In this document: piece by piece, positions 4,514-59,124 of the stretch
Numbering within the stretch: position 1 is the first letter of the stretch
How the letters are laid out: every line of letters begins with the position of its first letter
Source of the DNA: Mesorhizobium terrae
GTDB taxonomy: Bacteria > Pseudomonadota > Alphaproteobacteria > Rhizobiales > Rhizobiaceae
Length of the DNA stretch: 64,000 bases
NCBI RefSeq assembly: GCF_008727715.1
Contig: NZ_CP044218.1
Coordinates: 4,881,501 to 4,945,500, forward strand
Direction of reading: 5' to 3'
The notes under the pieces: model-generated
Seen by the model: only the letters and a program-made list of their open reading frames with translations
What the model was told of the DNA's origin: nothing
Database searches by the model: none
Program-made: the position numbers and the translations under genes

Positions 4514-4696
4514 TACCATCCTCCTGTCGGGTTGGAGAGCGGTCACCGCCGAGGGTCGAAACCCTTGATGGCCGCCCGTGGCTGCCACTGTCTGAACGTC
4601 TCACCATAACAGCTTCGTCCACGACTGTCGTCCGGGCGGCATCACAGTTTCTTGAGACGCCTGCCAAAAGCCATTTTCGCGGGTATGGAAGAGACG

Positions 4697-5218
4697 ATGA
4701 CACTTTCAGATTCGACCGCCCGATCGCCCACCCCGCTCCTCTCGATGGACCGGCGCGCCCTGCTGAGGTTTGGCGGCTTCGGCGCGCTCGCCTTGCTCGC
4801 CGGCTGCGGCACGATGCGCCCGACCGGCGAAAGTGGCGGCTCCTCGGCGGCGGCAAGCGGCATCGTTTCCGGCATCCGCTCGGGTGCCGGCCTGACGGCG
4901 CTCAGCCCCGACGCGCAGCTTGAACAGGCCGCGCTGCAGCAAGCGCGCTATATGGCCAGCGCGGGGCGAATGGAGCACACGACCGGCTGGGGCAAGGATT
5001 TCGCCGCGCGCGTCTCCGACAACGGCATCAAGGGCGCGGCCGCCGAAAACATCGCCCAAGGCCGCATGGACCTGACGCGCCTGTTCGACATGTGGATGAA
5101 CTCGCCGCCGCATCGCCGCAACATGCTCGATCCGCGTTTCACGCGCTTCGGCCTCGCCTATGTCGGCGATGCGTCACGGCCTGGTTGGCGGTATTGGGCG
5201 TTGGTTTTGGGGAAGTAG
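4697..5218 (+). CDS. CAP/SCP domain lipoprotein
   Basis: A secreted 173-residue protein. Residues 19-37 form an export signal with a twin arginine (DRRALL) and a lipobox ending LLAGC (Cys37), so it is probably a lipoprotein. The remainder is a CAP (SCP/PR-1) domain with the hallmark MWMNSPPHRRNML near residue 132 and the AAAENIAQG strand before it. Bacterial CAP proteins are poorly understood and may bind lipids or glycans. The start at 4697 follows a GGAAGAG site; the ATG at 4685 is an alternative. The stop codon is 2 bases before the heptamer array at 5221. Confidence 0.85.
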   Translation: MTLSDSTARSPTPLLSMDRRALLRFGGFGALALLAGCGTMRPTGESGGSSAAASGIVSGIRSGAGLTALSPDAQLEQAALQQARYMASAGRMEHTTGWGKDFAARVSDNGIKGAAAENIAQGRMDLTRLFDMWMNSPPHRRNMLDPRFTRFGLAYVGDASRPGWRYWALVLGK

Positions 5219-5220
5219 GG

Positions 5221-5304
5221 CAGTCGGCAGTCGGCAGTCGGCAGTCGGCAGTCGGCAGTCGGCAGTCGGCAGTCGGCAGTCGGCAGTCGGCAGTCGGCAG
5301 TCGG
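5221..5304 (+). repeat. Twelve perfect tandem copies of the heptamer CAGTCGG
   Basis: The 84 bases are exactly 12 copies of CAGTCGG with no variant. They start two bases after the CAP-protein stop codon. Perfect identity suggests recent expansion or slippage, so copy number probably varies between isolates. The same unit recurs in inverted orientation at 5356-5383 and as the terminal repeats of the element at 57201-57679. Confidence 0.97.
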
Positions 5305-5355
5305 AAAATAATGGCTGATTTCGACCATGCCTAGCCAATTTCTCACCAGTAAGTT

Positions 5356-5383
5356 CCGACTGCCGACTGCCGACTGCCGATTG
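5356..5383 (-). repeat. Inverted heptamer array (three CCGACTG plus CCGATTG)
   Basis: Four heptamers in the opposite orientation to the array at 5221-5304, with 51 bases of unrecognised sequence between the arrays. The outermost unit is the variant CCGATTG, read as CAATCGG on the other strand. That is also the outermost unit at both ends of the 57-kb element. The array ends two bases from the stop codon of the convergent MFS gene. The two arrays could pair into a long stem and may act as a bidirectional transcription barrier, though there is no T-run. Confidence 0.95.
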
Positions 5384-5385
5384 CC

Positions 5386-6921
5386 TCAATCCATATGCAC
5401 CGCCGGCGCGGCCGCGCCGCCTGCAGACTTCTTCGGCGATTTGAGCAGGAAGATGAGCGGAATGGCGCTGAGCGTCACCAGCATCATCAGTTTGAAGTCG
5501 GAGACGTAAGAAACCATCTGGGCCTGGATGTTGACGAGACCGTCCACCTGCGACAGCGCGGTGCGGTCGCCCATCGCCGCCGACGGGTTAGCGATCCATA
5601 GGTTCGGGTTGAACGGGTTGATGAAGGCCGACAGCTCCGAGTGGTTGATCTGCGTGTTCTGCGTCAGCATCACCGCAAAGGCCGAGATGCCGATGGAGGA
5701 ACCGATGTTGCGCACCAGCGTGAACAGCGCCGTCGCATCCGGCAGACCCGAGGGGTTTAGCGTCGAGAAGGCCATCGTTGAAATCGGCACGAAGACCAGC
5801 CCTAGTCCCAGACCCTGCACGATGCCGGACGACACGATCGGCCAGGCATCCATCTGCGGCGTGAAACCGGCCATCATGTTGAACGAATAGGCTGTGAGCA
5901 GCATGCCGACGAAGATCAGCTTCCTCGGATCGACGATGCGCATCAGGCGTCCGACCGCCAGCATCGAGATCATCGTGCCGACACCGCGCGGCGCCATCAC
6001 CATGCCCGTCGTCACCGTGGGATAGCCGAAGATCGCCGAGAGCATGGGCGGCATCAGCGCCATGCCGGCCAGGAGAATGACGCCGATGATGAAGATGAAC
6101 ACCAGCGCCGCCGCGAAATTGCGGTCGAGGAAGATCTTGGCGTCGATGAACGGGCGGTCGGCGGACATGGTGTGCACAACAAAGACCCAGATGCCGATGA
6201 CGGCGAGGCCGGTCTCGATCCAGATCTCGGTCGAGGAGAACCAGTCGGCATCGGCACCGCGGTCGAGCATCAATTGCAGCGCGCCGACGCCCAGCGACAG
6301 CATGGCGAAGCCGAAGAAGTCGAAGCCGCGGATGCGCTTGGGGATGCTGGGCAGGAAGGCGGCCATGCCGAGGAAGGCGACGATGCCGACCGGCAGGTTG
6401 ATCAGGAACACCCAGCGCCAGTTGTAGCTGTCGGTCAGCCAGCCGCCCAGCGTCGGCCCGACCACGGGCCCGACCATGATGCCGGCGCCCCAGATCGCCA
6501 TGGCCTGACCCCGGCGTTCCTTGGGATTGATGTCCATCAGGAAAAGCTGCGACAGCGGCACGATCGATGCGCCGAACACGCCCTGCATGAGGCGGAACAG
6601 CACCATCGTTTCCAGGCTCCAGGCGAGCCCGCACAAAAGCGAAAAGAAGACGAAGCCGACGACCGAGCCCAGGAACAGCTCCTTGCGGCCGAACTTGTCG
6701 GACAGCCAGCCGGTCATCGGCGTGACGATGGCGGCCGCGACGATGTAGGACGTCAGCACCCAGTTGATGGTGTCAGGCGACGCGCCGAGGTCGCCCGACA
6801 TCGACGGCAGCGCGACATTGGCAATGGTGGTGTCCAGCACCTGCATCACCGTCGCCGCCATGATCGCCACGGTGGCCAGCCCACGGTTCGGGACTTCGCG
6901 ATAACCTTGATCTGCACTCAT
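5386..6921 (-). CDS. DHA2 family multidrug efflux MFS permease (EmrB/QacA type)
   Basis: A 511-residue inner-membrane drug/proton antiporter with about 14 helices, the usual DHA2 size. It shows the LDTTIANVALP motif (residues 29-39), the loop motif GWLSDKFGRK (71-80), and the motif-C segment GAGIMVGPVVGPTLGGW with DSYNWRWVF after it. With the membrane-fusion protein at 7182-8360 it should form an EmrAB-like pump, possibly with a TolC-type outer channel encoded elsewhere. It lies downstream of the MarR and HlyD genes on the same strand, but a 260-base gap separates it from HlyD. That gap shows no clear promoter to my eye. Confidence 0.92.
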   Translation of the reverse strand: MSADQGYREVPNRGLATVAIMAATVMQVLDTTIANVALPSMSGDLGASPDTINWVLTSYIVAAAIVTPMTGWLSDKFGRKELFLGSVVGFVFFSLLCGLAWSLETMVLFRLMQGVFGASIVPLSQLFLMDINPKERRGQAMAIWGAGIMVGPVVGPTLGGWLTDSYNWRWVFLINLPVGIVAFLGMAAFLPSIPKRIRGFDFFGFAMLSLGVGALQLMLDRGADADWFSSTEIWIETGLAVIGIWVFVVHTMSADRPFIDAKIFLDRNFAAALVFIFIIGVILLAGMALMPPMLSAIFGYPTVTTGMVMAPRGVGTMISMLAVGRLMRIVDPRKLIFVGMLLTAYSFNMMAGFTPQMDAWPIVSSGIVQGLGLGLVFVPISTMAFSTLNPSGLPDATALFTLVRNIGSSIGISAFAVMLTQNTQINHSELSAFINPFNPNLWIANPSAAMGDRTALSQVDGLVNIQAQMVSYVSDFKLMMLVTLSAIPLIFLLKSPKKSAGGAAAPAVHMD

Positions 6922-56242: not shown

Positions 56243-57184
56243 CTAGTAGAACCGGTAGTCCTCGGCGATCTCGTCGCCGAGCCGCGTGTTCTCGGCGATG
56301 AAATTGCCGAGGAATTCGTGCAAGCCGGCGTCGAAGACGTCCTTGATCGAGCCGACTTTCAGCATTGCGTGGATACGCTCGGCGGTGGTGTGACAGGCAT
56401 GGCGCGCGCCATAGTCGCTGCCAAGGAAATTCAGATGTTCGAGGATGAAGCGGTAGCAGAACGTCAGCGAGCGCGGCATGCGCGCATTGACGATCAGATA
56501 GTCGGCGATGTTCGTCGGTTTGTATTCGGCCTCATACACCCAGCGGTAGGAGCGGTGCGCCGACACCGAGCGCAGGATCGATTCCCACTGGTAGTTGTCG
56601 AGCGTCGAACCGACCCAGGAAATCGACGGCAGAAGCACGTAATACTTCACGTCGAGGATGCGCGCCGTGTTGTCGGCGCGTTCGAGATAGGTGCCGAGCT
56701 GCGAGAAATCGAAGATCTCGTTGCGCAGCATGGTGCCGTAGAAGGCGCCGCGGATCAGCGCCGTCTCGCGTTTGACGGCGTCGAGCACGGTCGGCAGTTC
56801 GCGCTGGTCGATCGGCTTGGCCAGAATGCGCTTCAGGGCCATCCAGGCCTCGTTGGTGCTTTCCCACGTCTCGCGTGTCAGCGCCGTGCGCACCATGCGG
56901 GCGTTGTTGCGCGCGGTTTCGATGGACGACATCACGCTGGACGGGTTCGACGTGTCGCGCAGCAGGAAATCTGCGACATTGGCAGCGGTGAACTCGGAAT
57001 ATTTCTGCGCGAAGGCGACATCGGAACCGGCACTGATGACAACGGAGTGCCATTCCTCGGAAGCATCCTGCGTACGTGTCAGCGCCATGCGCAGACCGGC
57101 ATCGACCAGGCGCGCCATGTTCTCAGCCCGCTCGATATAGCGGTTCATCCAGTAAAGGCCGTTGGCGGTGCGTCCGAGAAGCAT
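56243..57184 (-). CDS. Alpha-E domain protein
   Basis: A 313-residue protein made almost entirely of alpha-E helices. It begins MLLGRTANGLYWMNRYIERAENMAR, with charged pairs shared by the family. The role is unknown; it is always encoded beside circularly permuted ATP-grasp and transglutaminase genes and may form a scaffold with them. The ribosome site GGGAGG is 8 bases upstream. The inserted four-helix element ends 16 bases upstream of its start. Confidence 0.92.
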   Translation of the reverse strand: MLLGRTANGLYWMNRYIERAENMARLVDAGLRMALTRTQDASEEWHSVVISAGSDVAFAQKYSEFTAANVADFLLRDTSNPSSVMSSIETARNNARMVRTALTRETWESTNEAWMALKRILAKPIDQRELPTVLDAVKRETALIRGAFYGTMLRNEIFDFSQLGTYLERADNTARILDVKYYVLLPSISWVGSTLDNYQWESILRSVSAHRSYRWVYEAEYKPTNIADYLIVNARMPRSLTFCYRFILEHLNFLGSDYGARHACHTTAERIHAMLKVGSIKDVFDAGLHEFLGNFIAENTRLGDEIAEDYRFY

Positions 57185-57200: not shown

Positions 57201-57224
57201 CGGCAATCGGCAGTCGGCAGTCGG
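57201..57224 (+). repeat. Left terminal inverted repeat of the four-helix element
   Basis: Twenty-four bases made of CGG, CAATCGG and two CAGTCGG units, perfectly complementary in reverse to 57656-57679. A degenerate unit, CAGATCGG, continues inward. Confidence 0.97.
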
Positions 57225-57254
57225 CAGATCGGAAGGGTATGCGTATCAGCGCCA

Positions 57255-57695
57255 TCAGCTTGCCCGTTGGAGACTGCGTATCAAGGCCCGAAGCATCCGA
57301 CCGATATCGTTTGCCTGAGCCAAAAAGCGTCGTTGTGCTTCCGCCTCGAGAAAGCCAACGCGGGTAGAAATTATGATGTGCGTCTCGAATTCCTTCAGCG
57401 AACCTTGAGCGATGCGAAGGAACTGGACGTAAGAACCGGTATTTTCCCGACCATATCCTTCCGCGATATTGGCCGCCACGGAAGTGGCTGCTCGTCTCAA
57501 CTGAGATGTAAGTCCATACAATTCAGATTGCGGAAAAGCTCTGGTCTGTTCGTAACAGTCGACAGCCAATTCAATAGCCAGGTTCCACACTCTTAGATCG
57601 CGATATGAGCCGATCTTGCTGTTTTCAGAACCGAGCGGCGGCTCGTGATCTGAGACCGACTGCCGACTGCCGATTGCCGACCAGCCGCTAGTCAT
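57255..57695 (-). CDS. Four-helix-bundle protein (S23 / 23S rRNA intervening-sequence protein family)
   Basis: A frame of 146 codons whose residues from about 27 onward match the S23/IVP family. Visible motifs are YRDLRVWNLAIELAVDCYEQ, QLRRAATSVAANIAEGYGR and LRIAQGSLKEFETHI, predicted to form four helices. The only ATG (57693-57695) overlaps the ATP-grasp stop codon, so residues 6-13 are encoded by the terminal repeat. No other plausible start precedes the conserved part. Relatives occur in rRNA intervening sequences and as accessory proteins of diversity-generating retroelements. Here it is neither. Partner and function are unknown. Confidence 0.85.
   Translation of the reverse strand: MTSGWSAIGSRQSVSDHEPPLGSENSKIGSYRDLRVWNLAIELAVDCYEQTRAFPQSELYGLTSQLRRAATSVAANIAEGYGRENTGSYVQFLRIAQGSLKEFETHIIISTRVGFLEAEAQRRFLAQANDIGRMLRALIRSLQRAS
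57656..57679 (-). repeat. Right terminal inverted repeat of the four-helix element
   Basis: Two CCGACTG units, CCGATTG and CCG: the exact reverse complement of 57201-57224. It is translated as part of the N-terminus of the four-helix gene. Confidence 0.97.
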
Positions 57696-59124
57696 CCAAC
57701 ACCCACGTATCCTTCGTCCCGCCGCCCTGAGACGAATTCACCACGAGCGAGCCTTCCTTCAGCGCGACACGGGTCAGGCCGCCGGGCACCAGCTGGATGC
57801 GGTCGGAGACGAGCACATAGGGCCTGAGGTCGACGTGCCTCGGCGCCAGACCCTTTTCGGTCATGATCGGGCACGTCGAGAGCGCAAGGGTCGGCTGGGC
57901 GATATAGTTCGACGGCTTGGCGGCGAGTTTCTTGCCGAACTCCTCGCATTCCTTTCTGGTCGCGGCCGGACCGACCAGCATGCCGTAGCCGCCCGACCCG
58001 TGAACCTCCTTGATGACCAGCTCGGACAGATGCTCCAGCACATATTTCAGGCTGTCCGGCTCCGAGCAGCGCCAGGTCGGGATGTTGCCGAGGATCGGCT
58101 TGCGGCCGGTGTAGAATTCGACGATTTCCGGCATGTAGGAATAGATCGCCTTGTCGTCGGAAATGCCGGTGCCCGGCGCATTGGCGATGGTGATGTTGCC
58201 GGCGCGGTAGACGTCCATGATGCCTGGCACGCCGAGCGCTGAATCGGGCTTGAAGGTCAGCGGGTCCAGATAGGCATCGTCGACGCGGCGGTAGAGCACG
58301 TCGATCTGCTTGTAGCCTTCGGTCGTGCGCATCGCGACATGGCCGTCGACGACGCGCAGGTCCGAACCCTCCACCAGTTGCACGCCCATCTGGTCGGCAA
58401 GAAAGGCGTGTTCGTAATAGGCGGAGTTGTAGATGCCCGGGGTCAGCACCGCGATGGTCGGCGTGCCGTCGACGCCCTTCGGCCTGACCGCCGCCAGCGA
58501 TTGCCGGAGCAGCGCCGGATAGTTCTCCACCGGCCGCACCTTGATCTGCTGGAACAACTCCGGAAAGAGCTGCATCATCGTCTCGCGGTTCTCCAGCATG
58601 TAGGAGACGCCCGACGGCGTGCGCGCATTGTCCTCCAGAACGTAGAACTCGTTCTCACTGATGCGGACGATGTCGACCCCGATGATGTGGGTGTAGACGC
58701 CTGCCGGCGGACGAACCCCGATCATCTCGGGCAGGAAGGCCTCGTTGTCGGCGATCAGCTGCCGGGGCACGCGTCCGGCGCGCAGGATTTCCTGGCGATG
58801 ATAGATGTCATCCAGAAACGCGTTCAACGCCTGCACGCGCTGCTCGATGCCGAGCGCCAGCCGGCGCCATTCCTGGCCGGCAATGATGCGGGGCACGATG
58901 TCAAAGGGGATGAGGCGCTCGGAGGCCTCCTGCTCGCCGTAAACGGCGAAGGTGATGCCGGTTTTCCGGAAGACGCGCTCCGCATCCTCCATCTTCTGGG
59001 CCAGTCTGGCCGGGTCTTGTTCTTTTAGCCAACGATCATAAGCCGAGTATGGTCTTCTCAGCCCGGTAGTTTCCGGAAGCATCTCGTCGAAAGCTGCCAA
59101 TCGCGTACTCCCCTCTGAAGCCAT
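57688..59124 (-). CDS. Circularly permuted ATP-grasp type 2 protein
   Basis: A 478-residue member of the circularly permuted ATP-grasp (type 2) family. It has an N-terminal MLPETTGLRRPYSAYDRWL, the IGVRPPAGVYTHIIGVDIVR segment, and C-terminal HGSGGYGMLVGP (nucleotide loop) and DLRPYVLVSDRI. Members are predicted to ligate amino acids or peptides. It is the first gene of the operon with alpha-E and transglutaminase genes; the four-helix element now lies between it and them. Its stop codon overlaps the ATG of the four-helix gene. Confidence 0.93.
   Translation of the reverse strand: MASEGSTRLAAFDEMLPETTGLRRPYSAYDRWLKEQDPARLAQKMEDAERVFRKTGITFAVYGEQEASERLIPFDIVPRIIAGQEWRRLALGIEQRVQALNAFLDDIYHRQEILRAGRVPRQLIADNEAFLPEMIGVRPPAGVYTHIIGVDIVRISENEFYVLEDNARTPSGVSYMLENRETMMQLFPELFQQIKVRPVENYPALLRQSLAAVRPKGVDGTPTIAVLTPGIYNSAYYEHAFLADQMGVQLVEGSDLRVVDGHVAMRTTEGYKQIDVLYRRVDDAYLDPLTFKPDSALGVPGIMDVYRAGNITIANAPGTGISDDKAIYSYMPEIVEFYTGRKPILGNIPTWRCSEPDSLKYVLEHLSELVIKEVHGSGGYGMLVGPAATRKECEEFGKKLAAKPSNYIAQPTLALSTCPIMTEKGLAPRHVDLRPYVLVSDRIQLVPGGLTRVALKEGSLVVNSSQGGGTKDTWVLDD

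Follow-up and report, generated by a model that had tools for sequence, protein, structure and literature searches.

A half-kilobase S23 gene unit with inverted heptamer arrays at its ends: a probable widespread mobile element of a kind not described before

A unit of about half a kilobase, consisting of one S23 gene ended by tandem heptamers, seems to represent a mobile element that is widespread and has so far escaped description. It is seen here in a 64,000-nucleotide stretch of the Mesorhizobium terrae genome (hereafter the window, in whose numbering all coordinates are given), and it was compared with S23 loci from the same genus, family and phylum, as well as from many other phyla. In our preferred reading, to which we assign a probability of roughly 0.6, the array, the S23 gene and the inverted array constitute a minimal mobile unit in which no transposase is recognisable and whose S23 protein would read its own array.

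The unit in the window is about 480 bp long and lies on the minus strand between two genes of a host operon, both recognised by profile matches as originally predicted: upstream, a circularly permuted ATP-grasp gene (57688..59124, minus strand; PF14403/PF04174) and, downstream, an Alpha-E gene (56243..57184, minus strand; PF04168). All three genes are co-directional. The two arms (57201-57224 and 57656-57679), with 24 nt each, are 100% complementary and have 431 nt between them; both are made of CAGTCGG/CAATCGG heptamers and belong to period-7 arrays, one on the 3' side of the S23 gene (57201..57228, reading CGGCAATCGGCAGTCGGCAGTCGGCAGA on the plus strand) and its inverted copy on the 5' side (57656..57680). 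A period-7 scan of the window gave four arrays, all of CAGTCGG, namely these two and those at 5218-5306 and 5354-5385. The gene product (57255..57695, minus strand, 146 aa) matches PF05635 (S23 or 23S_rRNA_IVP) with E=1.4e-35 and 122.2 bits (the cut-off being 33.8), no other gene of the 6.02-Mb genome matches this profile, and its nearest solved structure is 2GSC, from Xanthomonas (E=3.1e-22). The claim of perfect 24-bp inverted repeats of 7-bp units around a single S23 gene is therefore confirmed. PF05635 is also the sole profile match of the unit's protein, and the unit holds no recognisable transposase. In the predicted fold, the unit's RNA closes into a single hairpin with S23 within it (z=-5.98, with 0/100 shuffles as low).

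The original prediction placed the S23 gene between the repeats, which holds for the domain and fails for the reading frame: the single in-frame ATG/GTG/TTG before the domain is the ATG at 57693-57695, upstream of the array. Since this ATG overlaps the ATP-grasp stop (ATGACTAG), the array is translated as an N-terminal extension, as happens also in L059 and L113. Among 143 S23 elements examined, a start codon (ATG/GTG/TTG) lies between array and domain in 101, solely inside the array in 12 and solely upstream in 3, and no in-frame ATG/GTG/TTG precedes the domain in 27 (e.g. L063, L236, L262, L251, L060 and L245).

The PF05635 family is very common, with 7,980 matches in one search, and it is present in 47/151 genomes of the family sample, 62/398 of the phylum sample and 82/99 of the genus; it was not found in 14 control genomes. 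A first set of 103 S23 loci, covering part of the matches in the family and phylum samples together with 7 cyanobacterial plasmid places, showed flanks of period 7 in 59/103 cases, against 2/103 for control segments 700-1200 bp away, and of period 8 in 13/103, against 0 controls, with at most 1 locus at lags 4-6 and 9-12. When the genus loci were included (206 rows, with 3 duplicates), the best period was 7 in 115 rows and 8 in 50, one row had period 6 and 40 had none, and thus arrays of 7 or 8 bp flank S23 in 165/206 rows from the family, the phylum and cyanobacterial plasmids, 41/206 being below threshold. For a set of 80 loci drawn from many phyla, archaeal MAGs among them, the counts were 37 with period 7 (control 8/68), 8 with period 8 (control 1/68), 1 with period 9 and 34 with no array at threshold, that is, 45/80 positive and 35/80 not. 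Heptamer or octamer arrays are thus found by the search of S23 flanks in other genomes that had been proposed. Where arrays stand on both sides they are inverted in 154/161 cases (119/122 among the 203 loci given, and 35/39 among 78 of the 80 diverse ones) and direct in 7/161; L334, L343, L367 and L391 have both arrays in direct orientation. The upstream unit, read on the coding strand, has more G than C in 159/165 cases, with the opposite in 1 and 5 ties.

Several variants of this arrangement were seen. A divergent S23 class occupies one site (site 4, 10 loci: L279, L283 and L317-L324) in many genomes of the genus, with inverted period-8 arrays of the GAATTGAA/GAACTGAG type, 8/10 of them above threshold. 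A separate S23 clade has 8-bp units (CAGTAGGG, GTAGGGGA; L038, L042, L056, L188, L286, L289 and L307) and mostly lies behind one gene ending in ...FMEVISPWEREYLLLNV, a place where the M. terrae genome has a gene-less CAGTCGG hairpin (L093). Very long arrays, often with one arm far longer than the other, occur at L110, L130, L133, L156, L277 and L400, and this lopsided length suggests active expansion.

The site occupied by the unit could be followed across the genus, as the end of the ATP-grasp gene was located in 95/99 genomes (94 junctions measurable). These 95 junctions comprise 23 with S23 (in L221 it is cut by a contig end, and in G155 the gene is decayed), 14 that are empty, 11 S23-deleted relics, 45 gene-less array elements and 2 odd cases. 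An empty form of the ATP-grasp/Alpha-E junction, which had been anticipated, was thus found in 14/94 measurable junctions, with a length of 21 bp and not the expected 24 bp. None of the three observations that the original prediction listed against itself was made (the gene kept at this exact site by all related strains, S23 genes elsewhere lacking heptamers, no empty junction), and with S23 in 23/95 junctions the gene is not fixed at the site in relatives. The 45 gene-less elements, sorted by length and blast grouping and then read by eye, are of several kinds. All ten 'delB' junctions (10/10) and L072 align over at least 25 non-periodic bases to an S23 locus, and only 4/45 gene-less elements do so, weakly; an origin of the gene-less junction elements by internal deletion of S23 units therefore holds for 11/58 (the ten 'delB' junctions and L072) and not for the 45. 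On the ATP-grasp tree the junction state needs 45 changes, against a shuffled mean of 49.8 (3/200 shuffles as low). The junction site turns over fast, whether by gain and loss, by allele exchange or by both, and recombination of alleles could be another cause of the scattered states. The flanks of filled and empty junctions are too diverged to define a target duplication.

Flank homology groups the 203 S23 loci into 38 sites, the four largest of which hold 49, 41, 34 and 22 loci (146/203), and the sites with 49 and 34 loci each hold several different S23/heptamer types. With only 38 sites, and 146/203 loci in four of them, movement is rare or channelled. Related elements that occupy different sites were aligned in nine pairs, hand-picked from the most similar ones; in 7/9 (L114/L307, L114/L275, L033/L112, L048/L230, L050/L218, L125/L245 and L148/L261, which cover three pairs of sites only) the main match has 71-81% identity and both starts and ends at most 17 bp from the outer array edges, and in L177/L178 and L137/L140 the match does not end cleanly there. 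Four more pairs, including one with the window's own unit, are from the same site and align throughout. Judged from these alignments, the arrays are the ends of the moving unit for relatives of the window unit, where terminal inverted repeats delimit the DNA that seems to have moved, the aligned relatives of the window unit itself being all from its own site.

The array unit is concordant with the S23 protein. A FastTree built from 188 S23 proteins requires 57 changes of the unit over 12 groups, against a shuffled mean of 129.2 (0/200 as low), in a tree that has few columns and many weak forks and where shared flank descent alone would also cluster the unit labels. Given this concordance, it is most likely that an S23 protein recognises its own clade's array. 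The idea of a small helical protein acting on its own repeats gains indirect support in this way, to the extent that the unit follows the S23 clade and that gene-less arrays of the same unit exist in the genome. Moreover, S23 is kept by purifying selection, the dN/dS medians of 8 groups being 0.037-0.106 (for pairs of dS 0.1-1.2). The placement is also regular: S23 has a co-directional upstream neighbour in 147/148 callable loci (158 examined) and at 20/21 callable sites (28 examined), and a co-directional downstream neighbour in 134/153 callable loci, and in the diverse set (75 of 80 examined) the figures are 53/62 callable upstream and 56/62 callable downstream. Neighbour directions were called in a GC3-aware manner, since open frames alone are noise in GC-rich DNA.

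The heptamers of the unit occur also without the gene. With at most 1 mismatch, TCGGCARTCGGCARTCGG has 55+34 overlapping matches (89) in the 6.02-Mb genome, against 0+0 for the reversed pattern, and so the repeat is not due to chance; the repeat counts in the genome and the genus rule out both chance and sequencing artefact as the source of the arrays. The matches form 18 places, namely the S23 unit and 17 gene-less ones, and the S23 place alone holds a gene between its arms. The gene-less places mostly consist of a G-rich array, a short middle and an inverted array (L096 has one array only), and nearly all 17 read as two-armed, so that the genome holds many extragenic inverted hairpin doublets of the kind that characterises REPIN-type elements. 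In 14/17 of them an array edge is 0-13 bp away from a stop codon of the host (frames called by GC3). The one in the window (5219..5385) fills exactly the stop-to-stop gap between two convergent open frames (4652-5218, plus strand; 5386-6921, minus strand). In relatives this gap is occupied by a GAGTAGT hairpin (L408), by a mixed hairpin with a common right arm (L409), by octamer-reading arrays (L410, L411) or by sequence without arrays, in a comparison of 30 viewed loci of which part were resolved.

Across the genus, the CAGTCGG unit is present in 4/99 genomes (62 matches in the genome studied here, 28 in G155, 18 in G203 and 8 in G245). G155 has a decayed S23 of the CAGTCGG type at the ATP-grasp/Alpha-E junction; an S23 gene was not found in G245 despite its 8 array matches. 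CAGTAGG arrays occur in 72/99 genomes and 0 times in the M. terrae genome. The 21 genomes with a CAGTAGG-flanked S23 have a median of 12 CAGTAGG matches (their own flanks removed), against 4 in the 78 others, a difference that is significant and weak (Mann-Whitney p=0.0012, uncorrected for kinship). Exceptions are G207 (82 matches) and G240 (79), which have no CAGTAGG-flanked S23 among the fetched loci, and 17/78 genomes without such an S23, as judged from the fetched S23 loci only, still have at least 15 matches. Most likely, the gene-less array hairpins arose from the process that would move the S23 units, either as its non-autonomous products or as its relics.

Dispersed heptamers have already been published from other bacteria. 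GGGAATC in Xanthomonas (often in convergent pairs, 70 and 75 cases) and GGGGATT in Nostoc (few of them paired) were read as G-quadruplex SSRs, generally unassociated with mobile elements, and the text of that paper has 0 occurrences of S23, four helix and 23S rRNA (PMC4692102). The TAACTGA heptamer of Beggiatoaceae forms 169 direct repeat sets and one indirect set; its author considered that a repeat-binding protein might itself be a mobile element, and S23 has 0 occurrences in that text (PMC4679880). In the open-licence PMC literature we recognised no paper tying PF05635 genes to dispersed heptamer arrays, the Coxiella IVS repeats aside.

The S23 gene of Xanthomonas vasicola (L326) lies between apparent accB and accC genes (read from their translated ends). 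Its GGGAATC-type units begin 5 bp after the stop codon of the upstream gene and abut the start of the downstream one, in an array that is degenerate and below the period threshold. The same apparent accB-accC site carries S23 in L326, L327, L328 and L330, from Xanthomonadales-type genomes, with differing heptamers; the Luteimonas S23 at this site has a different unit, GTGATTS. Among 10 named genomes, GGGAATCGGGAATCGGG gave 64 matches in X. vasicola, 68 in Luteimonas (despite the GTGATTS unit of its S23), 17 in a Rhodanobacter MAG and 0 in 7 others, including a second Rhodanobacter, in which most arrays are of GGGATTC. The GTGATTS pattern gave 78 matches in Luteimonas, 1 in one other genome and 0 in 8, and GTGGWTA, the unit of the Thiohalocapsa S23, gave 15 in Thiohalocapsa, 4 in one other and 0 in 8. 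The reversed controls of these two patterns (GTGATTS, 8 matches in Thiohalocapsa and 1 in another genome; GTGGWTA, 11 in Luteimonas and 2 in another) are unclean, probably because the reversed patterns resemble the units of other genomes. Additionally, TCAGTTA/TCAGTTG units stand before the S23 gene of a Phycisphaerae MAG (L365), and TCAGTTA is the complement of TAACTGA.

Several known systems share features with the unit. REPIN/RAYT systems have many gene-less extragenic inverted-repeat hairpins, a gene tied to the same repeats and co-evolved repeat-protein pairs (PMC3116915, PMC8266576). They differ in that their protein is an HUH tyrosine transposase, whereas here it is a four-helix-bundle S23 protein, and in that their ends are single palindromes, whereas the ends here consist of tandem 7- or 8-mers and the units lie by stop codons within operons. 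PF05635 only was found in the unit, with no Y1 HUH tyrosine transposase gene; the unit works like a REPIN/RAYT pair, yet lacks the protein that defines that family. The 23S rRNA intervening sequences (IVSs) of the Coxiella type, that of Coxiella being reported to have 2-3 tandem GACAGAT heptamers before the S23 ORF and terminal inverted repeats forming a 28-bp stem (PMC4990558), share with the unit the S23 ORF, the complementary termini and the heptamers, so that the distinctness from rRNA intervening sequences first claimed for the unit finds no support. These sequences sit in rRNA, whereas the unit lies between protein genes and outside 23S rRNA. An Rfam scan of 100 other S23 loci (20 + 80) gave no rRNA family and one tRNA, beside L363, which discards an rRNA setting for S23 units in that sample. 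The published Xanthomonas and Nostoc heptamers share the tandem 7-bp arrays, GGGAATC also flanking the X. vasicola S23, and the Beggiatoaceae ones share the intergenic position, differing in being mostly direct where ours are inverted (PMC4692102 and PMC4679880). As regards diversity-generating retroelements (DGRs), their Avd protein is a relative of PF05635, and the two neighbours of the window unit are the ATP-grasp and Alpha-E genes, with no reverse transcriptase gene and TR/VR beside it. Having fallen outside both REPIN/RAYT and rRNA IVSs, the array-S23-array arrangement appears to be a new element type.

Based on these observations, we propose a mechanism in which a unit would consist of a G- or purine-rich tandem array of 7-bp (or 8-bp) repeats, the S23 gene and an inverted, pyrimidine-rich array, with the S23 protein as its sole product. 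Units lie a short way behind stop codons, in most cases between co-directional genes and oriented with the upstream gene, a placement through which the S23 gene may ride on host operon transcription. The RNA hairpin, with S23 as its loop, would hold the upstream stop near the downstream start. To our knowledge, no nuclease activity or motif is known in S23/Avd proteins. For this reason, and because Avd, which resembles PF05635 proteins (2GSC) in sequence and structure, stands beside the reverse transcriptase and is essential for DGR retrohoming (PMC10053308), the most conjectural step is that S23 would recruit a host or trans-acting enzyme (a polymerase, a reverse transcriptase or a repair path) for cutting and copying, recruitment of a polymerase or reverse transcriptase being the first idea given the need for Avd in retrohoming.

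We put forward a broader conjecture at somewhat less than even odds, namely that S23 defines a class of recombinase-less mobile elements, in which the protein would read the array of its clade and drive, via a host enzyme, the seeding, growth and dispersal of arrays behind stop codons. The cyanobacterial STRRs, which are heptamers, would then be traces of this class, together with Xanthomonas GGGAATC, Beggiatoaceae TAACTGA, gene-less hairpins like those of Mesorhizobium, and the 23S IVSs. In particular, given the tandem heptamers before the S23 ORF and the terminal stem in Coxiella, IVSs look by analogy like family members residing in rRNA.

Several observations count against the mobile reading: abundant arrays (CAGTAGG, CAGTCGG in G245, GGGAATC in Luteimonas) with no cognate S23 found; alignment to an S23 locus, and a weak one, in only 4/45 gene-less elements; the coverage of three site pairs by the alignments; the small number of sites; the 7/161 direct arrays; the sub-threshold arrays in 41/206 and 35/80 loci; the undefined target duplication; and the published heptamers of Nostoc and Beggiatoaceae, mostly not inverted pairs (PMC4692102, PMC4679880).

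Part of this evidence feeds the strongest rival, which we nevertheless regard as unlikely: gene-less hairpins would be old and primary, and S23 a passenger that docks by homologous recombination, using the arrays as short homologies. The homology of moved units does stop at the arrays, gene-less elements exceed S23 at the junction (45 vs 23), arrays are plentiful in some genomes where no cognate S23 was found, and related sites carry different units, with one arm grown in place (L408 vs L409). Such docking hardly explains why the unit tracks the S23 clade across host genera, why units almost always face the same way relative to the upstream gene or why S23 is under purifying selection. Furthermore, many arms have merely ~15-40 bp, which is short for RecA-dependent exchange. 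Less probable still is a mainly non-mobile origin, with arrays as 3'-end or operon-internal RNA hairpins produced by repeat slippage and S23 as an RNA-binding mRNA regulator. The stop-codon placement, the hairpin between convergent genes, the stable RNA fold, the conservation at few sites and the low dN/dS would all fit; the occurrence of a single clade's units at unrelated sites (their homology being confined to the unit), the different S23 clades sharing a site and the empty beside filled sites in close species speak for movement.

If movement is accepted, it could be due to an unrelated, hypothetical transposase acting in trans on MITE-like units with S23 as cargo or regulator, as the MITE-like behaviour of gene-less forms and the lack of any known nuclease motif in S23 might suggest; we consider this improbable, given that S23 is the sole gene between arms in the 18 CAGTCGG places and that the unit follows S23 phylogeny. 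Finally, an rRNA-type intervening sequence displaced into the operon would account for the S23 ORF, the terminal stem and the heptamers reported from the Coxiella IVS (PMC4990558), and is the least credible of all beside the 100 other S23 loci with no rRNA family; with a protein-gene setting as the rule in the sample, the IVS is better seen as the special case.

Under the preferred reading of a minimal mobile unit read by its own S23 protein, the unit offers both a candidate protein and a structure of the element behind dispersed heptamers that were reported without a spreading mechanism, and it may account for the scattered 7-letter repeats that have been puzzling for decades. It also gives a role to a very common family known mainly as the '23S rRNA intervening sequence protein'. 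Should S23 move these units while itself lacking a nuclease, this would be a new principle of mobility.
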